Part shown: positions 8,231 to 42,024 of the stretch, in pieces
Position numbering within the stretch: position 1 is the first letter of the stretch
Layout of the letters: the number at the start of each line of letters is the position of its first letter
Origin: Streptomyces sp. NBC_00654
GTDB taxonomy: Bacteria > Actinomycetota > Actinomycetes > Streptomycetales > Streptomycetaceae
Length of the DNA: 64,000 bases
Assembly: GCF_026341775.1 (NCBI RefSeq)
Contig: NZ_JAPEOB010000003.1
Location: 310,001 to 374,000, forward strand
Reading direction: 5' to 3'
Notes under the pieces: generated by a model
What the model was told of the DNA's origin: nothing
Seen by the model: the letters and a program-made list of their open reading frames with translations, nothing else
Database searches by the model: none
Made by a program: the position numbers and the translations under genes

Positions 8231-10000
8231 ATGGATGTCACGCCGCAGCAGGACCCGGACCCCCGCCAGCCGCCCGAGCCGCCGTCCCCCTTCCCGCCGC
8301 GCACGGCGGACGCGAAGGATCTCCCGGCCGCTCCCCAGGATCCCGGGAAGGGCGCGACCGCGGTCCCGCCCCCGCCGCCCACCGCACGTACGACGCTGCG
8401 CAGGGCCACGCTCGGCGCGGTCGCCGCGGCCGTTCTGGTGGCCGGTGCGGTGGTGGCCGTTCCGGACGGCGGGCAGGACGGCCCGAAGGTGCCGGGACCG
8501 GTCGAGCGGGCCCGAGCGGCGGCGACCGCCGGCTCCCCGGCCTCGCTCTCGGACCTGACCGCGCTCATCGGGGACCGGCAGAAGTGGGTGGAGGAGCATC
8601 CGTCCGACGCGCCTTCGTGGGCGGTGCTGGGCACGGCGTACGTGGAGTGGGGGCGGCGTTCCGCGGACGCGGCGTACTACGCGCGGGCCGAGACGGCCCT
8701 GAGGCGTTCGCTGGAGGAACAGCCCGGCGAACGCGGCAACGGGGAGGCCTGGGTGGGCCTGGCCGCACTCGCCAACGCCCGGCACGACTTCGTCGCGGCG
8801 AAGCGGTGGGGCGAGACCGTACGGGCCCGGGAACCGAAGACCTGGAGCACGTACCCGGTCCTGATCGAGGCGTACAACGGCCTGGGCGACCAGCGGGCGG
8901 CCGGCACGGCGACGGAGAGGTTCGGGCAGCTGCGCAAGGGGGTTCCGGCGCTGGCCCGGACCGCCGAGATGTACCGCGCCCAGGGCTGGCGGGAGGACGC
9001 GCTGGCCACCGCCCGCGAGGCGGCGGACCGGGCCACCACCCCCGTCGAGAAGGCGCAGTCCCTGCACCGCCTCGGCGATCTGGCGTGGGAGCGCGGCGAG
9101 CCGGAGGAGGCCGTGGCGCAGTACGACGCGGCGCTGCGCACGGACAGCGGCCAGCACGCGTCGCTGGCGGGCCGGGCCCGCGCCCTGGCGGCCCTGGGCC
9201 GTGCCGACGAGGCGCTGGACGCGTACCAGGCGGCGGTGGCGGAGCTGCCCCGCGCGGAGTACGCCCTCGAACTGGGCGAGCTGTACGAGGCGCTGGGCCT
9301 GGACGGCGACGCCCGCAGCCAGTACGCGAGGATGCGCACCCTGCTGTCACGGTCGAAGGCCGCCGGGGTCAACGAGTCCCTGCTCCGGGCGCGTTACGAG
9401 AGCGACCACGGCGACGCGGACACGGCGGTGGAGCTGCTGCGCGCGGAGTGGTCCCGGCAGCACCGCAGTGCGGCGGTGGCGGACGCGCTGGGCTGGGCGC
9501 TGCACCGTGCGGGCCGGTCGCAGGAGGGGCTGGAGTACGCCCGGCGGGCCGTCGACACGGGGGTCCGGAACGCCTCGTACGTGTACCACCTGGGCACGAT
9601 CGAACGGGAGCTGGCCCAGTACGGTGCGGCCCGCCGCCATCTGGAGGAGGCCCTGCGCACCAACCCGGCCTTCTCCCCGCTGGACGCGCCCCGCGCCGAG
9701 GAGGCCCTGGACGCGCTGGGGGAACCCGCGCCGGGCGGCCCGAAGGACATGCAGCCCCCGCCGAAGCCGGCCCCCGAGCCCGAGCCCGAGCCCGAGCCGG
9801 AGCCGGAGCCGGAGGCCGATACCGGGACGGCGAAGCCCGCCCCGTCGCGGCAGACCCCCTCCTCCCCCGCCTCCCCGACGCCCCGGCCGAGCAGCCCGGC
9901 ATCCACGGAGCCGGGCGCGGCGGGCCCGGCGGCGGCGTCCACGGCCGCCCCGTCCGCCCTGTCCGCCCCGTCCGCTGCGGGGACACCGTCCGGCCGCTGA
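8231..10000 (+). CDS. Membrane-anchored TPR protein
   Basis: A 589-aa protein: a Pro-rich N-terminal tail (1-50), one membrane helix (about 58-77, TLGAVAAAVLVAGAVVAV), then an array of tetratricopeptide repeats over about residues 100-480, and a Pro/Glu/Ala/Ser-rich C-terminus with an EPEPEP run. With one N-terminal helix, the TPR region most likely faces outside and may serve as a scaffold. ATG 8231 is preferred; an in-frame GTG at 8222 is an alternative. Partners are unknown. It is divergent from the GlcD-type oxidase and has a hairpin terminator at 10045-10080. Confidence 0.8.
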   Translation: MDVTPQQDPDPRQPPEPPSPFPPRTADAKDLPAAPQDPGKGATAVPPPPPTARTTLRRATLGAVAAAVLVAGAVVAVPDGGQDGPKVPGPVERARAAATAGSPASLSDLTALIGDRQKWVEEHPSDAPSWAVLGTAYVEWGRRSADAAYYARAETALRRSLEEQPGERGNGEAWVGLAALANARHDFVAAKRWGETVRAREPKTWSTYPVLIEAYNGLGDQRAAGTATERFGQLRKGVPALARTAEMYRAQGWREDALATAREAADRATTPVEKAQSLHRLGDLAWERGEPEEAVAQYDAALRTDSGQHASLAGRARALAALGRADEALDAYQAAVAELPRAEYALELGELYEALGLDGDARSQYARMRTLLSRSKAAGVNESLLRARYESDHGDADTAVELLRAEWSRQHRSAAVADALGWALHRAGRSQEGLEYARRAVDTGVRNASYVYHLGTIERELAQYGAARRHLEEALRTNPAFSPLDAPRAEEALDALGEPAPGGPKDMQPPPKPAPEPEPEPEPEPEPEADTGTAKPAPSRQTPSSPASPTPRPSSPASTEPGAAGPAAASTAAPSALSAPSAAGTPSGR

Positions 10001-26824: not shown

Positions 26825-28606
26825 TCACGTCATGCGGGTGGCCCACTCCTGGACCTTGGAGATCCGCTGCTGGATCTGCCCGGCGGTGGCCTCCGCGCTC
26901 GGCGGCCCGCCGCAGACCCGCCGCAGCTCGGTGTGGATCACGCCGTGCGGCTTGCCGCTCTGGTGGGTGTAGGCCGACACCATCGTGTTGAGCTGCTTGC
27001 GCAGGCCCAGCAGCTGCTTGTGCGTGACGACCGGGCGGGCCTCGGCGGGCTTCTCCAGGAGATCGGCCTCCTCGGCCGGCCGCTGGCGGCTGTGCGCGAT
27101 CTGCCGGCTCTGCCGCTTCTGGAGGAGAAGCTGCACCTGATCGGGTTCGAGCAGCCCCGGGATGCCCAGGTAGTCCTGCTCCTCCTCACTGCCGGGGTGG
27201 GCCTGCATGCCGAACTCGGCACCGTCGTACAGCACCCGGTCGAAGACCGCGTCGGACTCCAGCGCCTCGAAGGGCAGCTGCTCCTCGGTCTCCTCGTCCT
27301 CCAGCTTCTCGGCGTCGGCGAGGAGCTTGTCCTCCTCCGAGAACGGGTTCTCCTCGTCGCTGCCCTTCTTGGGCTTGTCCAGGACGTGGTCCCGCTCGAC
27401 CTCCATCTCGTTGGCGAAGTCGAGGAGCATCGGGATGGTCGGTACGAAGACGGAGGCCGTCTCACCGCGCCGGCGGGAGCGCACGAAGCGCCCGACGGCC
27501 TGCGCGAAGAACAGCGGCGTCGAGATGGTGGTGGCGTACACCCCCACCGCCAGGCGCGGCACGTCGACGCCCTCGGACACCATGCGGACCGCGACCATCC
27601 AGCGCGACCCGTCCTCGGTGAACTGGTCGATCTTCTTCGACGCGGCCTTCTCGTCGGAGAGGACCACGGTCGCCTTCTCACCGGTGACCCTCTTCAGGAT
27701 CTTGGCGTACTCGCGCGCCGACTCCTGGTCGGTCGCGATGACCAGCCCGCCCGCGTCCGGAATCCCCTTGCGCACCTCGGTGAGCCGCTTGTCGGCGGCG
27801 GAGAGGACGTTCGGGATCCAGTCGCCGGTGGGCGACAGCGCGGTGCGCCAGGCCTGCCCGATGGCGTCCCTGGTCATCGGCTCGCCGAGCCGCGCCGCGA
27901 TCTCGTCACCGGCCTTGGTGCGCCAGCGCATGTTGCCGCTGTAGCTGAGGAAGATGACCGGGCGGACGACACCGTCGGCGAGGGCGTTCCCGTATCCGTA
28001 CGTGTAGTCGGCGGACGACCGGCGGATGCCGTCGTTCCCCTCCTCGTACGCCACGAAGGGGATCGGGTTGGTGTCCGACCGGAACGGCGTACCGGTCAGC
28101 GCGAGCCGCCGGGTGGCCGGGTCGAACGCCTCCTGGCAGGCCTCGCCCCAGGACTTCGAGTCACCGGCGTGGTGGATCTCGTCGAGGATCACGAGGGTCT
28201 TGCGCTGCTCGCAGCGGTTGCGGTGCAGCATCGGACGGACGCCGACACCGGCGTAGGTGACGGCGACGCCGTGGTAGTCCTTGCTGACGGGTCCGGCGCT
28301 GTAGTCGGGGTCGAGCTTGATGCCTATCCGGGCGGCCGCCTCCGCCCACTGCTTCTTGAGGTGCTCGGTCGGTGCGACGACGGTGACCTGCTGGACGACA
28401 TGGTGGTGCAGCAGCCATGAGGCGAGGGTCAGCGCGAAGGTGGTCTTGCCTGCGCCGGGTGTCGCGACGGCGAGGAAGTCACGCGGCTGCTCCTGGATGT
28501 ACCTCTCCATGGCGCCCTGCTGCCAGGCTCGCAGCTTGCCGGCGGTGCCCCAGGGGGCACGGCCGGGAAAGGCGGGTGAGAGGTGGTGGGAGGCGGTAGT
28601 AGTCAC
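26825..28606 (-). CDS. DEAD/DEAH-type helicase
   Basis: A 593-aa superfamily-2 helicase. Walker A is TPGAGKTT at 49-56, motif II is DEIH at 142-145, and motif III is TGTPF. The helicase C-terminal motifs VSEGVDVPRL and QAVGRFVRSRR are clear. The family resembles XPB/RadD-like helicases of actinomycetes. After the helicase core there is an acidic stretch and a helical C-terminus. GTG 28606 is chosen for the GGAG site 5 bases upstream and the length; the frame is open further but with no coding character. Role unknown, probably in DNA or RNA processing. It is monocistronic. Confidence 0.9.
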   Translation of the reverse strand: MTTTASHHLSPAFPGRAPWGTAGKLRAWQQGAMERYIQEQPRDFLAVATPGAGKTTFALTLASWLLHHHVVQQVTVVAPTEHLKKQWAEAAARIGIKLDPDYSAGPVSKDYHGVAVTYAGVGVRPMLHRNRCEQRKTLVILDEIHHAGDSKSWGEACQEAFDPATRRLALTGTPFRSDTNPIPFVAYEEGNDGIRRSSADYTYGYGNALADGVVRPVIFLSYSGNMRWRTKAGDEIAARLGEPMTRDAIGQAWRTALSPTGDWIPNVLSAADKRLTEVRKGIPDAGGLVIATDQESAREYAKILKRVTGEKATVVLSDEKAASKKIDQFTEDGSRWMVAVRMVSEGVDVPRLAVGVYATTISTPLFFAQAVGRFVRSRRRGETASVFVPTIPMLLDFANEMEVERDHVLDKPKKGSDEENPFSEEDKLLADAEKLEDEETEEQLPFEALESDAVFDRVLYDGAEFGMQAHPGSEEEQDYLGIPGLLEPDQVQLLLQKRQSRQIAHSRQRPAEEADLLEKPAEARPVVTHKQLLGLRKQLNTMVSAYTHQSGKPHGVIHTELRRVCGGPPSAEATAGQIQQRISKVQEWATRMT

Positions 28607-28770
28607 GGTCTCCGGTTCGGGGCTCTCGGGTACGTGGGGCGCTGTCCGTAGTGAGCTCGCACGACCTCGTACGAGATACGACAACCGGGCCACCCTACCG
28701 GCGGCCCGGCCGGAACCCCGTACGAACGAGCCGTGGTTCGGGCCCGTTGAGACGCTCTTCACAGGAGTGC

Positions 28771-29065
28771 CTACACGGCGGACCCGGGCAGCTGTTCGGC
28801 GATCTTGGGCATGTCCAGGGCGCCCTGGCACACATCCAGCACGAACGTCTCCGCCTCGTCCACATCGAAGCTCGCGTTGAGCGGATGCCCATTCATGTGC
28901 AGGAAGACCCAGGTCGTGTATCAGGCGATGCGCCTGTTGCCGTCCACCGGCGAGTGGTTGCGCGCCAGGGACTCCATCAGAGCCGCGGCCTTCTGCCACA
29001 CGTCCGGATACGCGTCCTGGCCGAACACACTCGGGATCGACGGTACCGCGCGGTACCACTCGGTG
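28771..29065 (-). pseudogene. Broken Doc/Fic-type toxin gene (in-frame stop, N-terminus missing)
   Basis: The minus strand reads TEWYRAVPSIPSVFGQDAYP, then DVWQKAAALMESLARNHSPVDGNRRIA, then TGA, then YTTWVFLHMNGHPLNASFDV and on to a stop at 28771. This is the Doc/death-on-curing family: the Fic motif HxxxDGN(K/R)R is present as HSPVDGNRR. The stop sits where the family has Trp (GNRRIAW), so one TGG-to-TGA change would account for it. The first 30 or so residues are absent, as the frame is cut by the end of the MFS gene. No Phd-type antitoxin gene is adjacent. It is a toxin remnant, not a working gene. Confidence 0.85.
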
Positions 29066-31013: not shown

Positions 31014-31122
31014 GCCGGTCCACGGCAGGAGTACGGCTCTACGGCAGGGGACCGGTCCACGGCAGGAGACCGGTCTACGGCAGGGGACCGGTCCACGGCA
31101 GGAGACCGGTCTACGGCAGGGG
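31014..31122. repeat. 18-bp tandem repeat over the 3' end of lipoprotein A
   Basis: About six 18-bp units alternating ACCGGTCCACGGCAGGAG and ACCGGTCTACGGCAGGGG. The stop codon of the lipoprotein gene (31111) lies within the last unit. Only one such unit is found at the equivalent place in cassette B (35008), so the array has expanded in cassette A. Confidence 0.9.
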
Positions 31123-31779
31123 CCGAAGGTCCGGCTTCTTCGGCAGACCGCCGTTGTCCTCGCATCCGAGCTTCTCGGCGACGGCGAGGGACGCGGCATG
31201 GGCGAGGGTCAGATTGGCGGCCAGGTTCTCCGGGGCGGGCCCACGGTCCTTGGCGTTCCCGAAGCCCCCCTTGATACGCGCGGGCCGGTCCTTCGAACCG
31301 TCGAGCTGCGGGCTGACGCATTCGAAATTGATACGGGCCCCGACAGGCCCCGCCGTGGCCTCCTTGCCCATGGAGTACATGCGAGCGCCCCCGCGAAGGT
31401 CCGTGTCCCCCACGTCCTGCGGCGCGTAGATCGAGAAATTGATCTTCACGTCGTCGCGCCGGTCGGCGCCTTCCGCACCCAGGACACAGAGGTCGTACCC
31501 CGTCGCCCAGCTGCGGCCCGACGCATGGCCCTTCTTGAGCGCCTCGACCACCCGGTCCATGCGCTTTTCACCGGTCCGGTCGAAGGACGTGGCGCCCGTG
31601 ACGGTTTCGACGGTCTTCTCCAACGGACCGGCGAACACACCCCCGCACACTTCCCCGGCGCCCACGTACGGCGACTCCTCCTCCTCGGAACCGCACGCCA
31701 CCGCGCCCGCCCCGACGGTCATCACCAGCCCGATCACGGACAGCGCCCTCACCACTCGCACCGGTCCCACGCCTTTCAT
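31111..31779 (-). CDS. Cassette A lipoprotein
   Basis: A 222-aa predicted lipoprotein: basic start, hydrophobic core (ALSVIGLVMTVGAGAVA), then CGSEEEESPYVGAGEVC, where the first Cys would carry the lipid. The lipobox AVAC is slightly atypical. The mature domain has a conserved pattern CGGVFAGPLEKTVETVTG, RMDRVVEALKKG, YAPQDVGD and INFECVSPQLDGS shared with its copy at 35008. No known family is recognised. It is the third gene of cassette A, 37 bp after the 780-aa protein, and may act as an outside partner or protective factor for it (inference). Confidence 0.78.
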   Translation of the reverse strand: MKGVGPVRVVRALSVIGLVMTVGAGAVACGSEEEESPYVGAGEVCGGVFAGPLEKTVETVTGATSFDRTGEKRMDRVVEALKKGHASGRSWATGYDLCVLGAEGADRRDDVKINFSIYAPQDVGDTDLRGGARMYSMGKEATAGPVGARINFECVSPQLDGSKDRPARIKGGFGNAKDRGPAPENLAANLTLAHAASLAVAEKLGCEDNGGLPKKPDLRPLP

Positions 31780-31816
31780 CGCCGATCATTCCGTCCCGGT
31801 CACCGCCCTGCGGGCG

Positions 31817-34159
31817 TCAGCCGGTCTCGGGGTCGTTGCCCTGCTGGTTCTCGCGGTCGTTACCGGTCCCGTACCCGATCCGCATCGCTTCCTTGAGGTC
31901 CTGGCCCAGATCGCTGTTGATGTCGATGTGGTGCAGGGCCATGAACTTCTCCATGGGCGCCTCGGCCATCGATTCACCGGAGGAGTAGACCTTGGTCTTC
32001 TCCTCCCGGGTGAGTTCGTCGACCTTGTCCTTGTTCTTGTCCACGGAGTTGTCGGAGATGTCGCCGACGACCTGACCGATGAGCTGTTCCGCGGCCCCGC
32101 TCGCCGTGTCCGTGGCCAGCGGGATGAGAACGGCCGCCGTTCCCACGGCCGCGGTGACCGGGAGGAAGGCGACACCGGCGGCGACCGCCGCCCCGGCCCC
32201 GAACTCCACCCAGCCGGCCCGCTTGGCCACGGCCTTCTCGTACTCCTCGTGGGTCTTGAGGTTCGTCGCCTCGACCTGGTCGGCCCGCGACTGGTCGAGC
32301 ATGCCCTGGACCTCGGCGCCGACGTGCACGGTCGACCGGGCGGCGCCTTCCTTGATGTTCCCGTCCTGGTACTGCGCCTCCAGGACACTCGTGGTGTAGA
32401 TCTGCTCGGCCTTGGAGACGGTGGCGTACGCGTCGGGGTGCTGCCCCAGAGCGCTGAGGAAGCCGCGCGCCGCGTCCCGGCCACCGTCCTGGCCGGCGAG
32501 GTCGGAGAAGTCGAGGTGCCCCTCGGGGTTCTTGGTCGGCGCGAACACACTGTCCGGGTTGTTCTTGTCCAGGGACCAGTTGATGTCGTCGATGTAGCCC
32601 GCGCCCATGTTCCCGAGGCTGTCGGACATCGCCTCCTGCTGCTTGAGCAGGCCCGCGTCCGATCCGTACTTCTCCATCACCTGACGCATGACATCGGCGT
32701 TGTCCGCGTCCCGCGCGACGGTGGCGTCCGGACTGTCGTACGGATACCCGAGGGTCGCCGACTCCAGGGCATGCCCCAGGGCGTCCGGCATGTAGTTGAG
32801 CGACCGCTTGAGTTCGTCCGGGTCGAGCGAGTCGACGTCCCCGTAGGACTCCCACTTCTCGTTCCCGAAGAAGTCGAGGTAGTTGTCGACCGCCTGGCCG
32901 TCCTTCTTGCCGAGGTCGGCCGTCGCCCCCTTGTTGACGGTACCGTCCTCGTTGTACGCGGTCGGCGGATCGGTGAAGAACTGCTTCGACGCCTCCGGGC
33001 TGTGCCCCAGCGCCTCCAGCATGGCCACCGACGGATCGTAGCCGGAACCGTTCACCCCGGACGGGTTGAACGGGTTCTTGAAGGGGCTGTTCACCTGCTT
33101 GTTCTCGGCGAACATGTACGGGTCCTTCTGGTGCAGCTGCGCCACGTGCTCGGCGATCGGGTTGAGGAACTTCGGGTCGTAGTTCCCGTACCGCATGATG
33201 CCGCCGAGCAGCTGGTAGCCGAACGGCCCGTTGCTGTCGTACTTGGCCAGCGGGACGCGCTCGGTGCCGAGCTTGCGCAGCTCCGGCCCCCACTCGGCCG
33301 TGAACTTGGGGTCCTGCGAGGCGGTGGCCAGGTTGAGTCCCAGATTCTTCTGGAGGTCCTGGACGTCCTTCAGGCGCTCCTTGTCGACCTTGCCGTAGTC
33401 GTACGTGTCGGTCGACAGCTGCCCGAAGAACGCGAGGGCCTTCTCCGGGCCGAGCTTCTCGTAGAAGTTCTTCGAGAACTCCGGCGACTTGCTGTTGTCG
33501 TGCAGGAGTTCGTTGAGCGCCGCGAGCTCGGTGTGATTGATGTCGCGGCCCTTGGCGGCCAGGTCGGCGGCGCGGGCCGCCTCCTCCTGGTCGAGGTTCT
33601 GGTACTTCGGGGCGCTGAAGTCGTTGCCCTCGGTGACGTTGGCCTCAAGGGCGTTCTTGAAGGCCACGTCGGTGTCGTTGGCATTGTCGACGATCAGGTC
33701 GATCTTCTTCTGCCAGGCCTCGATGGACTCCTTCTGCTTGCGCAGGAGTTCGGAGTAGTCCGGGTCGTGCCGTGCGGTGTTGTCCTTCTCCAGCGGATGC
33801 CGGGCCGTCACTTTGCCCTGGGCATCGACATGGATGCCGGCCTCGCGCCCCTCGACGTCCCGGATGTTCACCAGGTCGTCCTTGGCCTTCTTGATGGCCG
33901 TGTGGGCGTCCTCCAGGATCAGCTTGACACCCTTGGCCTCGGCGGCGGCGTCCTTGAACTCCTTGGCGGTCTTGGCGATGAACGCCTTGGTGATACCGGC
34001 GTTCTCGCCCTCCCACTCCGCCTTGTCCGCCTTGGCCTTCATCCCGTCATTGGCATCCGTGGCCAGCTTGTCCAGCTTGGTGACCATCTCCGTCCAGTCG
34101 GTCACAGCCGTCTGGAGCTTGCCGATCGGCGCATCGACAATGTCTGCGTACTTCAGCAC
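31817..34159 (-). CDS. Cassette A ~780-aa protein with N-terminal WXG-like module
   Basis: A 780-aa protein. Residues 1-110 form a helical hairpin with a central WEG (AEWEGENAGITKAF), which resembles the WXG motif of type VII secretion substrates. A long mixed region follows, and near the C-terminus is a hydrophobic stretch (AAVAAGVAFLPVTAAVG, then AAVLIPLATDTASGAAEQL) that could insert in a membrane. I recognise no enzyme motif. GTG 34159 follows GGGGGA by 6 bases. The small partner gene ends 18 bp upstream, like EsxA/EsxB pairs. The paralogue at 35701 is almost identical in its first 155 residues and diverged afterwards. Possibly a secreted type VII effector (inference). Confidence 0.8.
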   Translation of the reverse strand: MLKYADIVDAPIGKLQTAVTDWTEMVTKLDKLATDANDGMKAKADKAEWEGENAGITKAFIAKTAKEFKDAAAEAKGVKLILEDAHTAIKKAKDDLVNIRDVEGREAGIHVDAQGKVTARHPLEKDNTARHDPDYSELLRKQKESIEAWQKKIDLIVDNANDTDVAFKNALEANVTEGNDFSAPKYQNLDQEEAARAADLAAKGRDINHTELAALNELLHDNSKSPEFSKNFYEKLGPEKALAFFGQLSTDTYDYGKVDKERLKDVQDLQKNLGLNLATASQDPKFTAEWGPELRKLGTERVPLAKYDSNGPFGYQLLGGIMRYGNYDPKFLNPIAEHVAQLHQKDPYMFAENKQVNSPFKNPFNPSGVNGSGYDPSVAMLEALGHSPEASKQFFTDPPTAYNEDGTVNKGATADLGKKDGQAVDNYLDFFGNEKWESYGDVDSLDPDELKRSLNYMPDALGHALESATLGYPYDSPDATVARDADNADVMRQVMEKYGSDAGLLKQQEAMSDSLGNMGAGYIDDINWSLDKNNPDSVFAPTKNPEGHLDFSDLAGQDGGRDAARGFLSALGQHPDAYATVSKAEQIYTTSVLEAQYQDGNIKEGAARSTVHVGAEVQGMLDQSRADQVEATNLKTHEEYEKAVAKRAGWVEFGAGAAVAAGVAFLPVTAAVGTAAVLIPLATDTASGAAEQLIGQVVGDISDNSVDKNKDKVDELTREEKTKVYSSGESMAEAPMEKFMALHHIDINSDLGQDLKEAMRIGYGTGNDRENQQGNDPETG

Positions 34160-34689
34160 GTCAATTCCCCCGGGGATTACTTCAGATACTCATTGAGCTT
34201 GGAGACCGAGATGAGATCCCCGGCGATCTGGACATCGTCCTTCTGAAGCGACGACGTCGTGTAATTGAGGTGATTCGAAATCTGCGCACACGCGTCGAGC
34301 AACGTCTTCAGATGCGTGTTCCACCGGTCATGGACCTTCAGGAGCCCCGACCCGCTCTCGAAGTTCCCGTTGGTGAGCGCGATGGCCGCGTCGAACGTCG
34401 ACGGACGGGCATGATCACCGTCCTTCGACACACGGGTCCGCAGACCGTACGCCTCATGCCCGATAGCACCCAGGTTGTCCTTGTTCACCGCAAGATCCGC
34501 AACAACCGGCCCACCACCGGGACCCCCCGGCTCCGCCGGCACACCATTCAGCCGCATATCGACCCGCTGTGTCGATTCGGCACGAAGCGTTGCCCATTCT
34601 GAGTCGAACGTCACGAAATCCCCCGTACTCAATCCCGGATGCCACCGAAGCCCACCGCTCCGCTCTCAATGACGCCCACGCTAGCGGCT
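33699..34689. repeat. Near-identical block, copy A (991 bp)
   Basis: This stretch matches 37595-38585 with only three base differences found by reading both copies. It covers the first part of the 780-aa gene, the whole small partner gene and about 60-75 bp upstream, then identity stops abruptly on both sides. Confidence 0.9.
34177..34614 (-). CDS. Cassette A small WXG-partner-like protein
   Basis: A helical protein of about 145 residues (VTFDSEWATLRAESTQRV at the start; NHLNYTTSSLQKDDVQIAGD and LNEYLK at the end). Similar small proteins with an EW near the N-terminus stand before large substrates in actinobacterial type VII loci. GTG 34614 is preferred because GGGGGA is 5 bases upstream; a TTG at 34632 would add six residues. 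It ends 18 bp before the 780-aa gene. The copy at 38073-38510 differs by one residue (Ser/Leu in TTSSLQ versus TTLSLQ). Confidence 0.72.
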   Translation of the reverse strand: MTFDSEWATLRAESTQRVDMRLNGVPAEPGGPGGGPVVADLAVNKDNLGAIGHEAYGLRTRVSKDGDHARPSTFDAAIALTNGNFESGSGLLKVHDRWNTHLKTLLDACAQISNHLNYTTSSLQKDDVQIAGDLISVSKLNEYLK

Positions 34690-35007
34690 CAGTTTCAGCC
34701 GAGGCACCTCGGGATGAGATCACTTTCCGCCCCAAACACATAAAGCCAGGCAGACGGTTCCATTTCCGAGGGCCGTTCCCCTGCGCGTCGCCATCCCCGG
34801 AGCGGCCAGCCGCCGCGGCTCCTGGAGAAGGGAGGCGGCGGGACGGATGCACACGGCGCGAACGGCAACCGTGCGGAGTGCGGCACTCACAGAGAGCACC
34901 ATCAACGGCGCGGGGGCGGACGGCGCCGGCTGGACGTCGTGACCAGGAAGGCCGCCCCGGACACAGGACGGCCTCCCGACTCCACGAACTCAACGAGCGC
35001 GGGCGAC
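34690..35007. other. Inter-cassette region
   Basis: 318 bp between cassette A (upstream flank) and the stop of lipoprotein B. No convincing gene. It contains the decayed terminator hairpin AGGCCG (34949-34954) / CGGCCT (34969-34974). This element resembles the terminator after cassette A and ends the cassette B transcript. Confidence 0.6.
34946..34976 (-). terminator. Decayed terminator of cassette B
   Basis: GGAAGGCCG... pairs imperfectly with CGGCCTCC. The sequence matches the cassette A terminator (30908-30935) in its left arm but has lost symmetry in the loop and right arm. It lies 32 bp after the lipoprotein B stop. Confidence 0.55.
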
Positions 35008-35673
35008 CTACGGCAGGGGCTGAAGGTTCGGATCCAGCTCCCGGGGCAACCCGCCGTCGTTCTCGCATTCAAGCTCTTCGGCGACGGCGAGGGAAGCGGC
35101 ATGAATAACGGTCAGATTGGCCACCAGGTTCTCCACCGCGTCACCTCGATTCGCAGCACCTTCCAATCCCCCATAAATCCGTGCCGGTCGATTCCTGGAA
35201 CCATCCAGTCGCGGACTGACACACTCGAAGTAAAGCCCGGCCACACGGGAACGGGCCACCGCCTCTTTACCCAACGGAAAGAGCCGAGTGCCCTCAGGGT
35301 TGCCCGGATCACCCACATCGTCCGGCGCGTAGATGAGGAAGGACAGTGTGGTCGCTTCTCTCGAATCAACACCCTTGGCACGCATCTCGCAGAGTTCTTC
35401 AGCCAGCGACCAACGGCGTCCCGACGCGTACCCCTTCTTGATCGCCTCGACCACCCGGTCCATGCCCCCTCCAGAGCGCCGACCGAAAGACGTGCCGCCG
35501 GCAACGGCCTCAACCGTCTTCTCCAGAGGGCCCACGAACAGGCCCTCGCACCCCTCAGCCGCGCTCACATAGGGCGACTGGGGCTCCTCGGCCCCACATG
35601 CCACCCCGCCAGCAACAACAGCCAGTACCAGACCGGCGGCCGCCATCACTTTTCCGCACCGCACCCCGCCCAC
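35008..35673 (-). CDS. Cassette B lipoprotein
   Basis: A 221-aa predicted lipoprotein paralogous to 31111-31779. The signal segment AAAGLVLAVVAGGVAC gives a lipid-modified Cys, followed by GAEEPQSPYVSAAEGCEG. Shared segments include GLFVGPLEKTVEAV, DRVVEAIKKGYASG and YFECVSPRLDGS. GTG 35673 is the assumed start. It lies 27 bp after the 784-aa gene. Codon use here is noticeably less GC-biased than in cassette A. Function unknown. Confidence 0.75.
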   Translation of the reverse strand: MGGVRCGKVMAAAGLVLAVVAGGVACGAEEPQSPYVSAAEGCEGLFVGPLEKTVEAVAGGTSFGRRSGGGMDRVVEAIKKGYASGRRWSLAEELCEMRAKGVDSREATTLSFLIYAPDDVGDPGNPEGTRLFPLGKEAVARSRVAGLYFECVSPRLDGSRNRPARIYGGLEGAANRGDAVENLVANLTVIHAASLAVAEELECENDGGLPRELDPNLQPLP

Positions 35674-35700
35674 CCCCTCATATCTTCCGCGTTGCCGACT

Positions 35701-38055
35701 TCACCCGGTCTCCGGCGCACTGCCTTGCTGATTCTCGCGATCATTGCCACTTGAGTAGCCTGACCTCATCGACTCCTTCAAGTCCTGGCGGAAGTTGGAA
35801 TCCTCCTCGCTTCCGTGACGCGCCAGAAATTCCTCCATCGGAGCCTCGGCCATGGCCTCGCCGGAACGGTAAATACTGTTCCATTCTTCCACAGTGAGAT
35901 TCTCAGCCTTTTCCTTGCTCTTCTCCACCGAGTTGTCCGAGATATCCCCCACGACCTGGCCGATGAGCTGCTCCGCTGCACCGCTCGCAGTATCGGTCGC
36001 CAAGGGAATGAGCACAGCAGCAGCGCCTACCGCAGCCGTTACCGGAAGGAAAGCGACACCGGCCGCAACCCCCGCCACCGCACCGAACTCCACCCAGCCC
36101 GAACGCTTGGCCACGGCCTTCTCGTAGTCCTCATGAGTCTTCATGAAGTCTGCCTCAACTTGGTCGGCCCGGGACTGGTCGAGCATGCCCTGGACTTCGG
36201 CGCCCACGTGCACAGCCGACCGGGCGGAACCCATGTCGACCTTCCCGTCGGAGCCCACTTGAGCCTCCAACACGCTCCGGGTATAGACCTGCTCCGCCGT
36301 GGAGAGGGTGGCATAGGCATCCGGGTGTTGTCCGAGAACGCTGAGGAAGCCGCGCGCGACACTCCTGCCTTCCTGCCCCCCCTTGTAGGCGCTACTGTCG
36401 AAGGCGAGGTGACCATCAGGATTTCGCGTTGGGGCAAAGACGCTTTCGGAATCCCCCTTTTCGAGCGCCCAGTTGATGTCGTCTATGTACCCGGCGCCCA
36501 TGACTCCCAGACTGTCTGCCATAGCGTTCTGCTTGTGGAGGAGACCCGCGTCCGCTCCATACTTTTCCATGACCTGCCGCATGATCGCCGCATTATCGGA
36601 GTCGCGCACCACCTTGGCATCCGGGCTGTCGTACGGATACCCGAGGGTCGCCGATTCCAGAGCATGCCCGAGCGCGTCCGGCACATACTGACGGGTCGTA
36701 TCAGAAGCACCTGGGTTGTCATGGCCGACGTCCGAGAAAGACTTCCATTTATCATTTCCGAAGAAGTCAAGGTAATTCCCAATCGCCTCACCATCCTCAC
36801 CCTTACCCAGATCCGCTGCACTCTCCTTGTTGACCGTGCCGTCCTCGTTGTACGCGGTCGGGACATCGGTGAAGAACTTTTTCGCAGCATCCGGACTGTG
36901 GCCCAGCGCCTCCAGCATGGCGGTGGCCGGATCAAACCCGGATCCATTCTTCCCCGAAGGGTTGAACGGGTTCCCTGCGTAGGCAGTGTCCTGATTGGTA
37001 CTCGCGAAAATATGCGGACTCTTCTGGTGCAACTGCGCCACATGTTCGGCGATCGGGTTGAGGAACTTCGCGTCGTAGTTCCCGTACCGCATGATGCCGC
37101 CCAACAACTGATAACCGTACGCACCACCGTAATCATTCTTGGCAAGCGGAATTTGCTGCGTACCCAGCTTGCGAAGTTCCGGCCCCCATTCGGCCGCGAA
37201 TTCTTTGTCGTGCGAGGCGGTGGCAAGATTCAGACCGAGGTTGCGCTGGAGTGCCTGAACATCCGCCAACCGCTCCTTGTCAACTTTTCCATAACCGTTC
37301 GTTCCCGTAGAGAGCTGTCCGAAAAAAGTGAGCACCTTCTCGGGGCCGAGCTTCTCGTAGAACACCTTGGCAAACTCGGGAAACTTTCCTCGCTCACGCA
37401 GCACTTCATTGAGTGACTGCAGCTCCATATGCGTAATACCGGGACCCTTGGATGCCAAATCGACAGCATAGGCCGCCTCTTCCTGATCCAGACTCCCGTA
37501 CTTGGGTGCGCTGAAATTGCGCCCCTCGGTGACGTTGGCCTCAAGGGCCCGTTTGATTGCCGCGTCCGCATCATTGCAGTCGTCCACGATGACATCGATC
37601 TTCTTCTGCCAGGCCTCGATGGACTCCTTCTGCTTGCGCAGGAGTTCGGAGTAGTCCGGGTCGTGCCGTGCGGTGTTGTCCTTCTCCAGCGGATGCCGGG
37701 CCGTCACTTTGCCCTGGGCATCGACATGGATGCCGGCCTCGCGCCCCTCGACGTCCCGGATGTTCACCAGGTCGTCCTTGGCCTTCCTGATGGCCGTGTG
37801 GGCGTCCTCCAGGATCAGCTTGACACCCTTGGCCTCGGCGGCGGCGTCCTTGAACTCCTTGGCGGTCTTGGCGATGAACGCCTTGGTGATACCGGCGTTC
37901 TCACCCTCCCACTCCGCCTTGTCCGCCTTGGCCTTCATCCCGTCATTGGCATCCGTGGCCAGCTTGTCCAGCTTGGTGACCATCTCCGTCCAGTCGGTCA
38001 CAGCCGTCTGGAGCTTGCCGATCGGCGCATCGACAATGTCTGCGTACTTCAGCAC
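35701..38055 (-). CDS. Cassette B ~784-aa protein with N-terminal WXG-like module
   Basis: A 784-aa paralogue of the 780-aa protein. Residues 1-155 are the same except K/R at AI(K/R)KAKDD; after about 158 the two proteins diverge (for example KKIDLIVDNANDTD versus KKIDVIVDDCNDAD). The C-terminal hydrophobic stretch (AGVAAGVAFLPVTAAVGAAAVLIPL) is conserved. The AEWEGENAG WXG-like motif is present. The diverged part of the gene has many A/T-ending codons, atypical of Streptomyces, suggesting a different evolutionary history from its N-terminal part. No enzymatic motif is recognised. Confidence 0.78.
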   Translation of the reverse strand: MLKYADIVDAPIGKLQTAVTDWTEMVTKLDKLATDANDGMKAKADKAEWEGENAGITKAFIAKTAKEFKDAAAEAKGVKLILEDAHTAIRKAKDDLVNIRDVEGREAGIHVDAQGKVTARHPLEKDNTARHDPDYSELLRKQKESIEAWQKKIDVIVDDCNDADAAIKRALEANVTEGRNFSAPKYGSLDQEEAAYAVDLASKGPGITHMELQSLNEVLRERGKFPEFAKVFYEKLGPEKVLTFFGQLSTGTNGYGKVDKERLADVQALQRNLGLNLATASHDKEFAAEWGPELRKLGTQQIPLAKNDYGGAYGYQLLGGIMRYGNYDAKFLNPIAEHVAQLHQKSPHIFASTNQDTAYAGNPFNPSGKNGSGFDPATAMLEALGHSPDAAKKFFTDVPTAYNEDGTVNKESAADLGKGEDGEAIGNYLDFFGNDKWKSFSDVGHDNPGASDTTRQYVPDALGHALESATLGYPYDSPDAKVVRDSDNAAIMRQVMEKYGADAGLLHKQNAMADSLGVMGAGYIDDINWALEKGDSESVFAPTRNPDGHLAFDSSAYKGGQEGRSVARGFLSVLGQHPDAYATLSTAEQVYTRSVLEAQVGSDGKVDMGSARSAVHVGAEVQGMLDQSRADQVEADFMKTHEDYEKAVAKRSGWVEFGAVAGVAAGVAFLPVTAAVGAAAVLIPLATDTASGAAEQLIGQVVGDISDNSVEKSKEKAENLTVEEWNSIYRSGEAMAEAPMEEFLARHGSEEDSNFRQDLKESMRSGYSSGNDRENQQGSAPETG

Positions 38056-38585
38056 GTCAATTCCCCCGGGGATTACTTCAGATACTCATTGAGCTTGGAG
38101 ACCGAGATGAGATCCCCGGCGATCTGGACATCGTCCTTCTGAAGCGACAACGTCGTGTAATTGAGGTGATTCGAAATCTGCGCACACGCGTCGAGCAACG
38201 TCTTCAGATGCGTGTTCCACCGGTCATGGACCTTCAGGAGCCCCGACCCGCTCTCGAAGTTCCCGTTGGTGAGCGCGATGGCCGCGTCGAACGTCGACGG
38301 ACGGGCATGATCACCGTCCTTCGACACACGGGTCCGCAGACCGTACGCCTCATGCCCGATAGCACCCAGGTTGTCCTTGTTCACCGCAAGATCCGCAACA
38401 ACCGGCCCACCACCGGGACCCCCCGGCTCCGCCGGCACACCATTCAGCCGCATATCGACCCGCTGTGTCGATTCGGCACGAAGCGTTGCCCATTCTGAGT
38501 CGAACGTCACGAAATCCCCCGTACTCAATCCCGGATGCCACCGAAGCCCACCGCTCCGCTCTCAATGACGCCCACGCTAGCGGCT
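37595..38585. repeat. Near-identical block, copy B (991 bp)
   Basis: Partner of 33699-34689, offset by 3896 bp. The three differences seen are: one in AI(K/R)KAKDD, one silent in the 784-aa gene, and one in the small partner gene (S/L). Confidence 0.9.
38073..38510 (-). CDS. Cassette B small WXG-partner-like protein
   Basis: Almost identical to the protein at 34177-34614, the only residue change being Leu for Ser in NYTTLSLQKD. GTG 38510 is preferred with GGGGGA upstream; TTG 38528 is an alternative. It ends 18 bp before the 784-aa gene. The upstream 60-75 bp are identical in the two cassettes, so both probably share the same promoter sequence. Confidence 0.72.
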   Translation of the reverse strand: MTFDSEWATLRAESTQRVDMRLNGVPAEPGGPGGGPVVADLAVNKDNLGAIGHEAYGLRTRVSKDGDHARPSTFDAAIALTNGNFESGSGLLKVHDRWNTHLKTLLDACAQISNHLNYTTLSLQKDDVQIAGDLISVSKLNEYLK

Positions 38586-39145: not shown

Positions 39146-40552
39146 TCAGACGCGACGGTCCTGTCCCGGCGCGCCACCATAAGGCGGATTCGAGCCAGGG
39201 GAATTCTGCGGCGGCGCGTAGCCCTGGTACGGAGGTTGTACCTGCTGCTGCGGGTACGCGGGCGGGGCCTGCCCCGGGTACTGCGGCGGGTGAGGCGCGG
39301 CCGGCGGCGAGGCAGCTGCGTTTCGACGACGCGACCGTACCGCCACGACCGCCACACCTGCGCCGATGAGTGCGGCAGCCCCGACACCGATGCCGATCCA
39401 GAGACCGGTGTTGCTGCCACCGTCTCCATCGGCCGAAGGGGCGGCAGCAGCGGGCTTGTCGTCCGACTCGGAACTCCCCGTGCCCTTCGAAGGCTTGGCG
39501 GAAGGAGCGGGACTCTCGGCTGCGGCCAAGTCGTGAAGCGGGTACTCATCGGCGGGGCCGGGGTCACCGGGGGTCTTCAGCGCGATACGGGGACGGACGA
39601 TGCCGTAACCGATGGCGTCCGTGCGCTCATCACCACTGACCGGACCTCCGGCCGTATTCAGCAGGACCCGCAGGACCTGGTTATTGGTCCAGTCCGGGTG
39701 CTTGGACCAGATGAGAGCAGCGGAGGCGGAGGCGAGAGCACTGGCATCACTAGTGCCGCGAGATTTACAGATCCCCGTTTTCCCCCCGCATGCGTGGACC
39801 ATCTCCACTCCAGGAGCAGCAAGGTCTACTTGGGTCCCGTACTGAGATTCCTTAGATCTTTTCAGATCTCTATCAATAGCACTTACTCCAACAACCCCAG
39901 GTGTTGCCGCCGGGTACTGTGCGAGATTTCCAGAGTTTCCGGTATTTCCCACCGCAGCGAAAACAAGTGAGCCTTTTCCGAGGGCATATTTCACAGCGTC
40001 GGACAGCTCTTGCGATCCTGCCTGATTACCTTGAGAAATATTGATTACTTTGGCGCCACTGTCAGCCGCGAATCGAATTCCAGCAGAAACATCTTCGCTA
40101 AAGTTCTTACTCCCCGTGGCACCGTTGACCTTACCGGTGTCATCCCTCATACGGATAGGGAGAATTTTGACCCCAGGGGCCAGGCCGAAGGCCCCATTTC
40201 CTCCATTCGACTTTCCGGTGCCAGCAATCAGGCCAGCCATCGCTGTGCCGTGTGTGTCGTAGTCATCTCGCTCATCTCCCGGTGATCCAGGAGAAAGATC
40301 CTTGCCCTTGAGAACCTGTCCGAGCAGATCGGCGTTTGAGGCATCCACACCAGTGTCAATCACCGCGACGGTCACGTTCGCGCCGGTGCTCACCGCCCAC
40401 ATCTCCTCGGCCTTCATCGCATCCAGATGCCACTGATCCGCTCGCACAGAATCCGCCGATGCAGGAACAGCGCCAACCAGCAGCAGAACCAACGCAGTGG
40501 ATGCCACAGTCCCTCGCCGAGCAACTACCTTGCGACTACTGCTGGTACGCAT
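39146..40552 (-). CDS. Type VII secretion-associated mycosin (S8 serine protease)
   Basis: A 468-aa subtilisin-type mycosin (MycP-like). It has a signal peptide (residues 1-33, ending VPASADS). The catalytic triad is D66 (AVIDTGVD), H101 (YDTHGTAMAGL) and S268 (SRGTSDASALASASAAL). N203 in VGNTGNSG is the likely oxyanion residue. Cys 255 and Cys 262, just before the Ser motif, fit a family disulphide. A membrane helix (about 383-408) and a cytoplasmic Pro/Gln/Tyr-rich tail end the protein. MycP proteins sit on type VII secretion machines. It follows the 481-aa WXG protein by 26 bp. No EccB-E genes are near. Parts of it have AT-rich codons. Confidence 0.93.
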   Translation of the reverse strand: MRTSSSRKVVARRGTVASTALVLLLVGAVPASADSVRADQWHLDAMKAEEMWAVSTGANVTVAVIDTGVDASNADLLGQVLKGKDLSPGSPGDERDDYDTHGTAMAGLIAGTGKSNGGNGAFGLAPGVKILPIRMRDDTGKVNGATGSKNFSEDVSAGIRFAADSGAKVINISQGNQAGSQELSDAVKYALGKGSLVFAAVGNTGNSGNLAQYPAATPGVVGVSAIDRDLKRSKESQYGTQVDLAAPGVEMVHACGGKTGICKSRGTSDASALASASAALIWSKHPDWTNNQVLRVLLNTAGGPVSGDERTDAIGYGIVRPRIALKTPGDPGPADEYPLHDLAAAESPAPSAKPSKGTGSSESDDKPAAAAPSADGDGGSNTGLWIGIGVGAAALIGAGVAVVAVRSRRRNAAASPPAAPHPPQYPGQAPPAYPQQQVQPPYQGYAPPQNSPGSNPPYGGAPGQDRRV

Positions 40553-40578: not shown

Positions 40579-42024
40579 CTAGTCGATGACCGGAGGAACA
40601 ACACGGCGGCCGCCCTGCTGCCAAGTCTCCTCGTCCTCCATCAGGTAATCCGGCCTGTCGCTGCCCTCGTCGCGACGTGAATCACCTGAGCGCGGCGTCA
40701 CCCCGGCGCCACCTCGACCCATCGGACCAGAAGCACGGCCACCGTCTGCCGCGCCACGCACCAAACCAGTTCCGCCGGGCGTGAACGGGCGCGCGTTGGC
40801 ATGCCCGGGTTGCTGTGGGCGACCGCCCACCATGCCGCCCGTCTCACCGGCGAGACGGCGACCGCCGACAATGCCGCTCTGGCCACCGCTGGTGCCGCCC
40901 ATTGCCGGACCATGTCCCATCGGTCCACGGCCGGCGTGCGTTCCCTCGTTTCCGATCACCGGGCTGCGGGGGAGGCCGCCCATGGGGCGGCCAGGGTTCT
41001 GCGGCACAGGACGTCCACCGACGATGGGACCGGGAGGCCTGGTACCGGGACCGCTGGCATTCGGCGGTCCCACCGTGGGTATGGGAGGACGTGCGCCACT
41101 CGGCAGCCCACGGCCGCCTCCGCTCGTCGTAGGCGGAGCGACCGGTCCGACGTTGGGGAACACTGTGGGTGACGTCGGAAGGCTGGTCTCGGGCCTGCCC
41201 GGATTCGGAACGCTCGGCGTGGTGGTCGGGGGGAGCGTCGAAGGGTCCGGCAGCGTTGCCACGCTGTCGATCCCCATGTCGACCGGCTGTGACACCGTGG
41301 CTCCCACTCCAGGAGTCGGCGTAGACACGCCCGGTGGTATTACGTGGCCGTCTGACGACTCAGGGCCGTGTGTATACGACGTAGCACCCCGTGCGAGGCC
41401 CCCGACGGAGCCGCCCGTATCCGCTCCCCCAACTGCGTAGTCCCCGCTCCCACTGTCCAGATTTCCCTGGTTCTCCGGCACAATGATCGCCGGCGGCGGC
41501 GGGAATACCGGCTTCTCCAGGCCCTTCATCTGCGATGACGAGAACGCGTACGACTCCGCCAGCTTCCGCATCTGCGCGGCCGCTTCCTGGCGGTTCGCCT
41601 CCTTGTTCGCCAGCAGGGTGTCCGCGGCCTCGCGCGCGACCGCCGACGCATCCGGGTCGTTGCGCGCTTCCTTGGCCGCTGCCAGGTTCGCTGCCGCGCC
41701 GGCGTGGGTGCGGGGGATCGCCACCTGGGCTGCGGCGATCGCGTCGGAGGCGCGGGCCAGCCACTTCGACGCGCCCTCGCTGTAGTCGCCCAGGCGCAGC
41801 GTCGAGTTGGCCAGGTCCGCGCTCCAGGTGCGGAAGGCGTCCGCGCCCTCGCCCTTCCACTCCACCATCTGCGGGCGGATCTTCAGGTCTTCCGCGATCT
41901 TGCGGATCTCCGTGGCCGCGCTCAGCAGTCGGTCGGCCGCCCCCTGAACAGCCCCGCTGTTCGCCTGGTCGAGCCAGGCCAGCATCTGCTCATGAGACAT
42001 GCCTTCGAATGACGTCGTTCCCAT
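40579..42024 (-). CDS. WXG-domain protein with long Pro/Gly-rich tail
   Basis: A 481-aa protein with an N-terminal helical-hairpin domain (residues 1-175) carrying MVEWKGEGADAFRTW, a WXG motif. About 280 residues follow of Pro/Gly/Thr-rich, low-complexity sequence resembling PPE-type and EspB-like tails, ending with a conserved-looking RPDYLMEDEETW and VVPPVID. ATG 42024. It is probably a type VII substrate or surface-associated partner for the mycosin. It lies 26 bp upstream of the mycosin gene and 47 bp downstream of the 168-aa gene, forming an operon. Confidence 0.85.
   Translation of the reverse strand: MGTTSFEGMSHEQMLAWLDQANSGAVQGAADRLLSAATEIRKIAEDLKIRPQMVEWKGEGADAFRTWSADLANSTLRLGDYSEGASKWLARASDAIAAAQVAIPRTHAGAAANLAAAKEARNDPDASAVAREAADTLLANKEANRQEAAAQMRKLAESYAFSSSQMKGLEKPVFPPPPAIIVPENQGNLDSGSGDYAVGGADTGGSVGGLARGATSYTHGPESSDGHVIPPGVSTPTPGVGATVSQPVDMGIDSVATLPDPSTLPPTTTPSVPNPGRPETSLPTSPTVFPNVGPVAPPTTSGGGRGLPSGARPPIPTVGPPNASGPGTRPPGPIVGGRPVPQNPGRPMGGLPRSPVIGNEGTHAGRGPMGHGPAMGGTSGGQSGIVGGRRLAGETGGMVGGRPQQPGHANARPFTPGGTGLVRGAADGGRASGPMGRGGAGVTPRSGDSRRDEGSDRPDYLMEDEETWQQGGRRVVPPVID

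Follow-up and report, generated by a model that had tools for sequence, protein, structure and literature searches.

The closest described systems are the LXG polymorphic toxins of Bacillota type VII secretion systems (T7SSb; Tel proteins), for which passages of two papers describe a conserved helical export domain to which small partners of the Lap or DUF5082 type, encoded in the same cluster, bind, together with a variable C-terminal part and an immunity gene downstream (PMC9600955, PMC10434224). A glycine-zipper element is placed near the C-terminus of TelE, and also of several TelE variants, in excerpts of PMC10434224. Excerpts of PMC9484751 present strings of tsaI genes with interspersed tspA fragments, as well as immunity-gene arrays in Staphylococcus aureus and streptococci that are shaped by recombination and have toxin fragments among them. 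PE/PPE pairs of mycobacterial ESX systems (T7SSa) combine a small helical partner with a helical N-terminal module before a variable C part (PMC9600955, in part), and sections of PMC12691689 report T7SS-linked alarmone synthetase effectors from some Streptomyces clusters and from Amycolatopsis, with adjacent putative immunity genes and T7SS components. Here, we analysed a 64,000 bp stretch of Streptomyces sp. NBC_00654 (contig NZ_JAPEOB010000003.1, positions 310,001 to 374,000; hereafter the window), in which two tandem three-gene cassettes, A and B, lie on the minus strand in the order partner, effector, lipoprotein, at an offset of 3,896 bp. Comparison with relatives shows that one end of cassette B was overwritten from cassette A by gene conversion, and we consider it about 60% probable that the locus behaves as a type VII secretion-linked polymorphic effector system whose likely immunity protein is the lipoprotein. 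The cassettes comprise the following features (window coordinates):

34177..34632, minus strand: partner gene A; TTG start, product a small helical WXG-partner-like protein of 151 aa
31817..34159, minus strand: effector A, 780 aa, DUF6571-like
31111..31779, minus strand: lipoprotein A, 222 aa, lipobox Cys29; putative immunity protein
38073..38528, minus strand: partner gene B, 151 aa, a single amino-acid difference from partner A
35701..38055, minus strand: effector B, 784 aa, 77% amino acid identity to effector A over the whole protein
35008..35673, minus strand: lipoprotein B, 221 aa, 57% identity to lipoprotein A
33699..34689, no strand assigned: conversion tract in cassette A (donor), 3 differences in 991; 88%–98% per 100 columns to cassette A of Streptomyces sp. 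TSRI0281 (TSRI0281-A)
37595..38585, no strand assigned: conversion tract in cassette B (recipient), nearer to TSRI0281-A (88%–98%) than to TSRI0281-B (67%–91%)

Like the LXG (Tel) toxins as those passages present them, the cassettes combine a putative helical export module, a small helical partner, a variable C part and a downstream candidate immunity gene. They differ in being mycosin-linked (T7SSa-type), in carrying a WXG instead of an LXG motif, in having one upstream partner found, in a candidate immunity protein that is a lipoprotein, and in matching no known toxin domain, a feature that polymorphic toxins usually have but that does not define them. With TelE and TipE, as excerpted, they share a Gly-rich element near the effector C-terminus, and with TspA and TsaI they share immunity-type genes in series, interspersed with effector or toxin fragments. 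However, TipE is without a membrane segment and TsaI is polytopic, whereas the cassettes use a lipoprotein, and 88 of 91 of these have five cysteines, counting that of the lipobox. Tandem paralogues, recombination through conserved blocks and copy-number change are also features of the esaG and tipC arrays (PMC9484751, in excerpts), but there immunity genes recombine, while here the tract covers the partner gene and the effector N-module. The alarmone synthetase effectors likewise neighbour T7SS components and putative immunity genes (PMC12691689, in part); theirs is an enzymatic C-terminal domain, to which the DUF6571-like C part is unrelated by family models. The resemblance to PE/PPE pairs, as partly sourced above, extends to a helical partner, a helical N-module and a variable C part in a T7SSa setting, and differs in that the third gene encodes a lipoprotein and that no PE or PPE Pfam domain was matched above cut-off (one distant member has a weak PPE match, E 0.0026). 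Family models also gave no match in the window proteins for LXG or WXG100 (PF06013; one distant paralogue at E 0.0017, under cut-off). Several close homologues are named DUF6571 or annotated with PF20211 in a precomputed column, and the distant member L117 reaches that model at 41.8 bits (cut-off 27), but the window proteins do not match it at E 0.1, and Pfam assigns it no function. Homologues are otherwise named hypothetical or AG2. A full-text literature search, with most subscription journals outside its coverage, returned no paper on DUF6571 and no relevant paper on DUF6507, DUF6317 or PF20211, and "AG2 protein" gave matches only from other fields; broader searches gave no title naming the family and no function.

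The initial annotation had reported a near-identical block shared by the two cassettes, and its coordinates and offset proved exact: 33699–34689 and 37595–38585 differ at three of 991 positions (33891, 34007 and 34253). It extends from 57 bp upstream of the partner gene, through that gene and the spacer, to effector codon 153–154. Aligning the cassettes and plotting identity along them gave sharp edges, as had been claimed, and neither even divergence nor a gradual fade: directly beyond the block, identity falls to 66%–85% per 100-bp window on the effector side (32901–33700) and to at most 35% upstream. When codons of the A/B gene alignment were shuffled, the observed stretch of 461 sites with at most two differences was reached in 0 of 10,000 shuffles (longest shuffled stretch, 98), and synonymous divergence (dS) between A and B is 0.019 in codons 1–154 and 0 in the partner gene, versus 1.0–1.8 in the other four segments. 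Hence, chance does not account for the block, and nor does purifying selection acting on the protein. Changed codon use in copy B was also borne out, with a GC content at third codon positions (GC3) of 0.94 for effector A and 0.74 for effector B; by part, B has 0.67–0.76 outside the tract and 0.90 inside it (codons 1–154), and A 0.91–0.97. The C-terminal parts and lipoproteins, described beforehand as strongly diverged, have indeed diverged, but they are full-length homologues (77% for effectors, 57% for lipoproteins). Duplication of the block by the assembler is highly improbable: near-identical repeats and a genome in 15 contigs would allow it, yet the copies differ at three scattered positions, and on either side of the block B-specific sequence begins abruptly.

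At the same site, Streptomyces sp. TSRI0281 has both cassettes (order: mycosin, third cassette, B, A, major facilitator superfamily [MFS] transporter, helicase). Its A and B are 73% identical overall with no homogenised block; the best 100 columns, around the partner start, reach 94%, and the remainder of that part 69%–86%. This genome thus shows the pre-conversion state. Window-A resembles TSRI0281-A at mostly 88%–99% per 100 columns (dS 0.08–0.15). Within the tract, window-B matches TSRI0281-A as closely as window-A does, and beyond it switches to TSRI0281-B, at 79%–92% to approximately residue 540 and 48%–80% thereafter. In DNA trees (nine or eight rows), both window copies pair inside the A clade for the tract, where grouping window-B with TSRI0281-B was rejected (approximately unbiased [AU] test, P = 0.001), whereas for codons 165–640 window-B pairs with TSRI0281-B (100/100) and joining the window copies was rejected (P = 2.8e-14). 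Unconverted TSRI0281-B has a GC3 of 0.77 in the tract-equivalent part. Protein trees of 38 hand-chosen rows from the family placed window-B as sister to TSRI0281-B for the C part (SH-aLRT 100; joining with window-A rejected, P = 4e-102) and window-A, window-B, TSRI0281-A and cassette A of the near relative G019 in one clade for the N part (100).

The conversion claimed from the window alone is therefore supported, and sequence comparison gives it a direction: A was the donor and B the recipient of the partner gene and the WXG-bearing N-module, after the split from TSRI0281, because the tract is A-type in both copies, the rest of B is sister to TSRI0281-B, and GC3 agrees. A overwrote this unit of B in one recent conversion of approximately 1 kb. 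Cassette B may hold a second exchange, since its last third is far more distant from TSRI0281-B than its middle. The further suggestion that the shared module is kept the same as a standing process did not hold; the data indicate one recent event only, given that TSRI0281 A and B are unhomogenised and that 3 of 60 same-genome pairs exceeded z >3, namely the window pair and two TSRI0281 pairs involving the third cassette.

The effector family was found in 131 of 199 genomes searched across the genus and at five places in this genome, with copy numbers being lower bounds as at most five candidates were scored per genome. From fetched loci, picked from search matches and hence not random, we assembled 110 distinct members (116 before removal of six identical proteins). 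A partner homologue lies directly before the effector in 102 of 110, and the order partner, effector, lipoprotein is nearly constant across loci. As a side observation, one effector subtype (L056, L059, L096 and L098) has no recognisable partner homologue directly upstream, and in two of these loci a 255-aa reading frame replaces it. The parts of the effector referred to below are as follows, with predicted local confidence (pLDDT) from AlphaFold2:

33635..34159, minus strand: effector A N-module, residues 1–175; W49-x-G51 at the turn of a helical hairpin, followed by helix 135–173 (AlphaFold2)
33596..33634, minus strand: effector A linker, residues 176–188; pLDDT <50, beside the commonest break between N-module and C part
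31820..32572, minus strand: effector A C-terminal end, residues 530–780; the portion tracked by lipoprotein identity
32060..32221, minus strand: hydrophobic Gly/Ala-rich segment, effector A residues 647–700; possible membrane-active element, pLDDT <50

The AlphaFold2 model of effector A (mean pLDDT 78) has helices 12–46 and 52–106 as the hairpin, and low confidence at segments 176–188 and 647–724. W49 is present in all 110 members and G51 in 109, and 83 of 110 have a hydropathy peak of at least 1.2 in the region of residues 647–700.

Pairs in all identity statistics given here are not independent. Out of 5,995 pairs, 342 were discordant (identity of at least 65% at the start and a drop of at least 0.25; the set includes one row that is a frameshift artefact). 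Their breaks fall at residues 160–219 (103 pairs), 400–539 (123) and 660–719 (91), and the fullest 20-residue bin is 180–199 (88 pairs). For example, N-module and C part identities are 92% and 24% between the TSRI0281 third cassette and S. finlayi, and 83% and 25%–28% between G156 and G075, with the reverse pattern (33%–35% and 65%–67%) between G025 and the third-cassette type. Polymorphic C-terminal parts, as initially proposed, do not describe the two window copies alone, whose C parts are homologues at 73% identity, but do describe the family, in which similar N-modules precede C parts as low as 21%–25% identical and the partner goes with the N-module; comparison across Streptomyces thus found N-modules and C parts shuffled among the 110 members.

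Partner identity followed the N-module (partial rank correlation 0.71, 0/200 permutations, 102 members) and hardly the C part (0.13, 3/200), whereas lipoprotein identity followed the C part (0.53, 0/200, 91 members) and not the N-module (0.03, 43/200). A five-segment regression, which left out members of at most 690 aa (102 to 100 and 91 to 89), loaded the partner on the N-module (0.71; other segments −0.03 to 0.08) and the lipoprotein on residues 530–649 (0.39) and 650–780 (0.41), with 0.0 for the N-module and −0.15 for residues 190–330. At one chromosomal site with the MFS gene held constant, correlations were 0.80 for partner and N-module and 0.76 for lipoprotein and C-end across 18 loci (two of 20 were dropped, being without a listed partner or lipoprotein). 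The C-part protein tree rejected grouping the N-similar pairs, while the N tree alone did not reject the C groups. As judged from these alignments, partner plus N-module and C part plus lipoprotein evolve as separate exchange units, with a main break near the linker at residue 180.

It is improbable that ordinary birth and death in a tandem family, with one incidental conversion, accounts for these patterns. Co-variation of neighbours would then be linkage and the lipoprotein would not be tied to the C-end; neighbouring genes do co-inherit, remnants of lost cassettes exist in G019 and S. finlayi, and most same-genome pairs are unhomogenised. Nonetheless, changepoints cluster at few protein positions, the linker among them, the gene order is near-constant, and lipoprotein identity tracks residues 530–780 (simple r = 0.71) far above residues 190–330 of the same gene (0.38).

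Cassette turnover is visible in near relatives. G019 has cassette A only, and between its mycosin and A lie a lipoprotein 86% identical to that of the TSRI0281 third cassette and a 57-residue piece resembling lipoprotein B (49%). The TSRI0281 third cassette (L035:5583–8230) has an N-module 83% identical to that of TSRI0281-A, just the end of a partner gene, its own lipoprotein type and a C part at approximately 24% identity in the family alignment. It lies between the mycosin and B (L035:5058–9090), and a piece resembling the mycosin 3′ end recurs behind it (8866–9087, 77%), as if an insertion had duplicated or displaced that end. Elsewhere, the G175 effector (L109:12–2576) is frameshifted near residue 455, giving two profile pieces in different frames.

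Some lipoproteins are present in surplus. A lipoprotein homologue follows 104 of 113 effectors or pieces retaining the C-end in a profile search (an earlier lipobox search found one for 91 of 110 members). Scanning the loci with profiles, leaving out the repeat loci L036, L040, L042, L050 and L054 and also L058 and L136, detected reading frames or pieces for 121 lipoproteins, 118 effectors and 106 partners. With one lipoprotein assigned per effector, 17 of 121 lipoproteins were surplus, compared with one stand-alone partner in 106 (Fisher P = 1.4e-4); 10 of the 17 are near full length, and six lie at the border of a locus, so that their effector could be outside it. At the SirexAA-E site (L051), a WXG/Pro-Gly protein and mycosin are followed by a partner, an effector of the third-cassette type with its lipoprotein, an additional A-type lipoprotein (61% identical to an S. 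finlayi lipoprotein), an MFS gene and a helicase, which is the arrangement that replacement of the C unit would leave if the old lipoprotein stayed. S. finlayi (L064) has two full surplus lipoproteins and one partial, with a stretch 81% like effector residues 755–780 ahead of one of them. SirexAA-E and G019 thus retain lipoproteins whose effector type is replaced or gone. A transposase-like open stretch, noted by eye, lies between the surplus lipoproteins of S. finlayi, just before the effector-tail remnant (L064:11240–11944).

These surplus copies bear on a somewhat unlikely alternative, a PE/PPE-like surface or transport system in which an exported heterodimer of partner and effector stays at the cell surface, the lipoprotein serves as co-receptor or assembly partner, and phage or other interactions at the surface, instead of toxin and immunity, drive the variation. 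The adjacent mycosin, the helical WXG hairpin, the hydrophobic stretch and the weak PPE match of one distant member are in keeping with it, and PE/PPE genes recombine with one another. It predicts neither surplus lipoproteins (17/121) with near-absent stand-alone partners (1/106) nor an A-type lipoprotein retained beside another effector type, as in SirexAA-E.

The type VII-like character assigned to the locus at the outset was supported: 109 of 110 members have W-x-G, the adjacent gene encodes a mycosin, and a paralogue lies within an EccC/EccD/WXG100 locus of the genome. There are three EccC loci above cut-off in this genome, and in one of them a family member has a mycosin and a pair of WXG100 genes to one side, and EccC and EccD to the other. 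In the window, the neighbours are:

39146..40552, minus strand: mycosin (type VII secretion subtilase), TIGR03921 at 320.8 bits (cut-off 278.75)
40579..42024, minus strand: 481-aa protein; N-terminal stretch WXG-like by eye, tail rich in Pro and Gly

The 481-aa protein, which matches no Pfam family, adjoins the mycosin in several relatives too. As for variants of the Yxxx[DE] export motif, 10 of 102 partners have [YF]xxx[DE] within their final 45 aa, and 92 of 102 have [HYF]xxx[DE] at a single alignment position. The type VII link of the cassettes is well supported by the gene neighbourhoods and the W-x-G motif, and the effectors are putative export substrates. Window mycosin GC3 (0.61) is below that of cassette B (0.74), with effector A and the MFS gene at 0.94, and may reflect a different origin. 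A helicase at 26825–29059, near the cassette site, is present there in many relatives and has partial matches to DNA phosphorothioation restriction models (far under cut-off) and to PbeA models.

In the polymorphic effector system that we favour, the partner and the WXG-bearing N-module together would form the export signal; the C-terminal part, mostly with a hydrophobic Gly/Ala-rich stretch near its end, would act on the competitor cell envelope; and the lipoprotein, on the outer face of the producer membrane, would be the matching immunity protein. The conversion and its direction, the two exchange units and the surplus lipoproteins are seen in the sequence data; secretion, toxicity and immunity of the cassette products are what we infer. 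Several observations weigh against this proposal. The cassette proteins match no known toxin, immunity or PADLOC model in Pfam, NCBIfam or PADLOC, and there is no clear solved-fold match for the effector or for the lipoprotein (Tsi3-like and LpqN-like folds were considered for the latter). The window partner is without [HYF]xxx[DE], and the T7SSa export motif is not canonical. The hydrophobic stretch is below threshold in 27 of 110 members, and for 9 of the 113 effectors that keep a C-end no neighbouring lipoprotein was found. Single-linkage clustering joins 108 of the 109 C-ends long enough to compare into one loose group, so separate toxin classes were not seen. No AU test on the protein alignment of the N part reached significance (P = 0.243, 0.155 and 0.626). 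Lipoproteins diverge faster than C-ends: among the 235 pairs whose C-ends share at least 70% identity, 100 have lipoproteins below 35%. Finally, linkage alone makes neighbours co-vary, and the lipoprotein also correlates with the MFS gene (partial correlation 0.42); physical linkage gives part of the co-variation, although the lipoprotein favours the far C-end so steeply over the middle of the effector that we would expect less from linkage.

A broader proposal, which we advance tentatively and hold to be somewhat less than an even chance, is that DUF6571-like proteins represent an undescribed class of membrane-active antibacterial Streptomyces (T7SSa) effectors, with surface lipoproteins as specificity-determining immunity proteins and two separately exchanged units. 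If so, recombination at a single chromosomal address could join the export signal of a cell to a new C-end, or could refresh its export unit from a tandem copy. Should the system be one of toxin and immunity, the split between partner plus N-module and C part plus lipoprotein would map the exporting part against the recognised part, which is directly testable, and antagonism through type VII secretion would be common across a genus better known for antibiotics.

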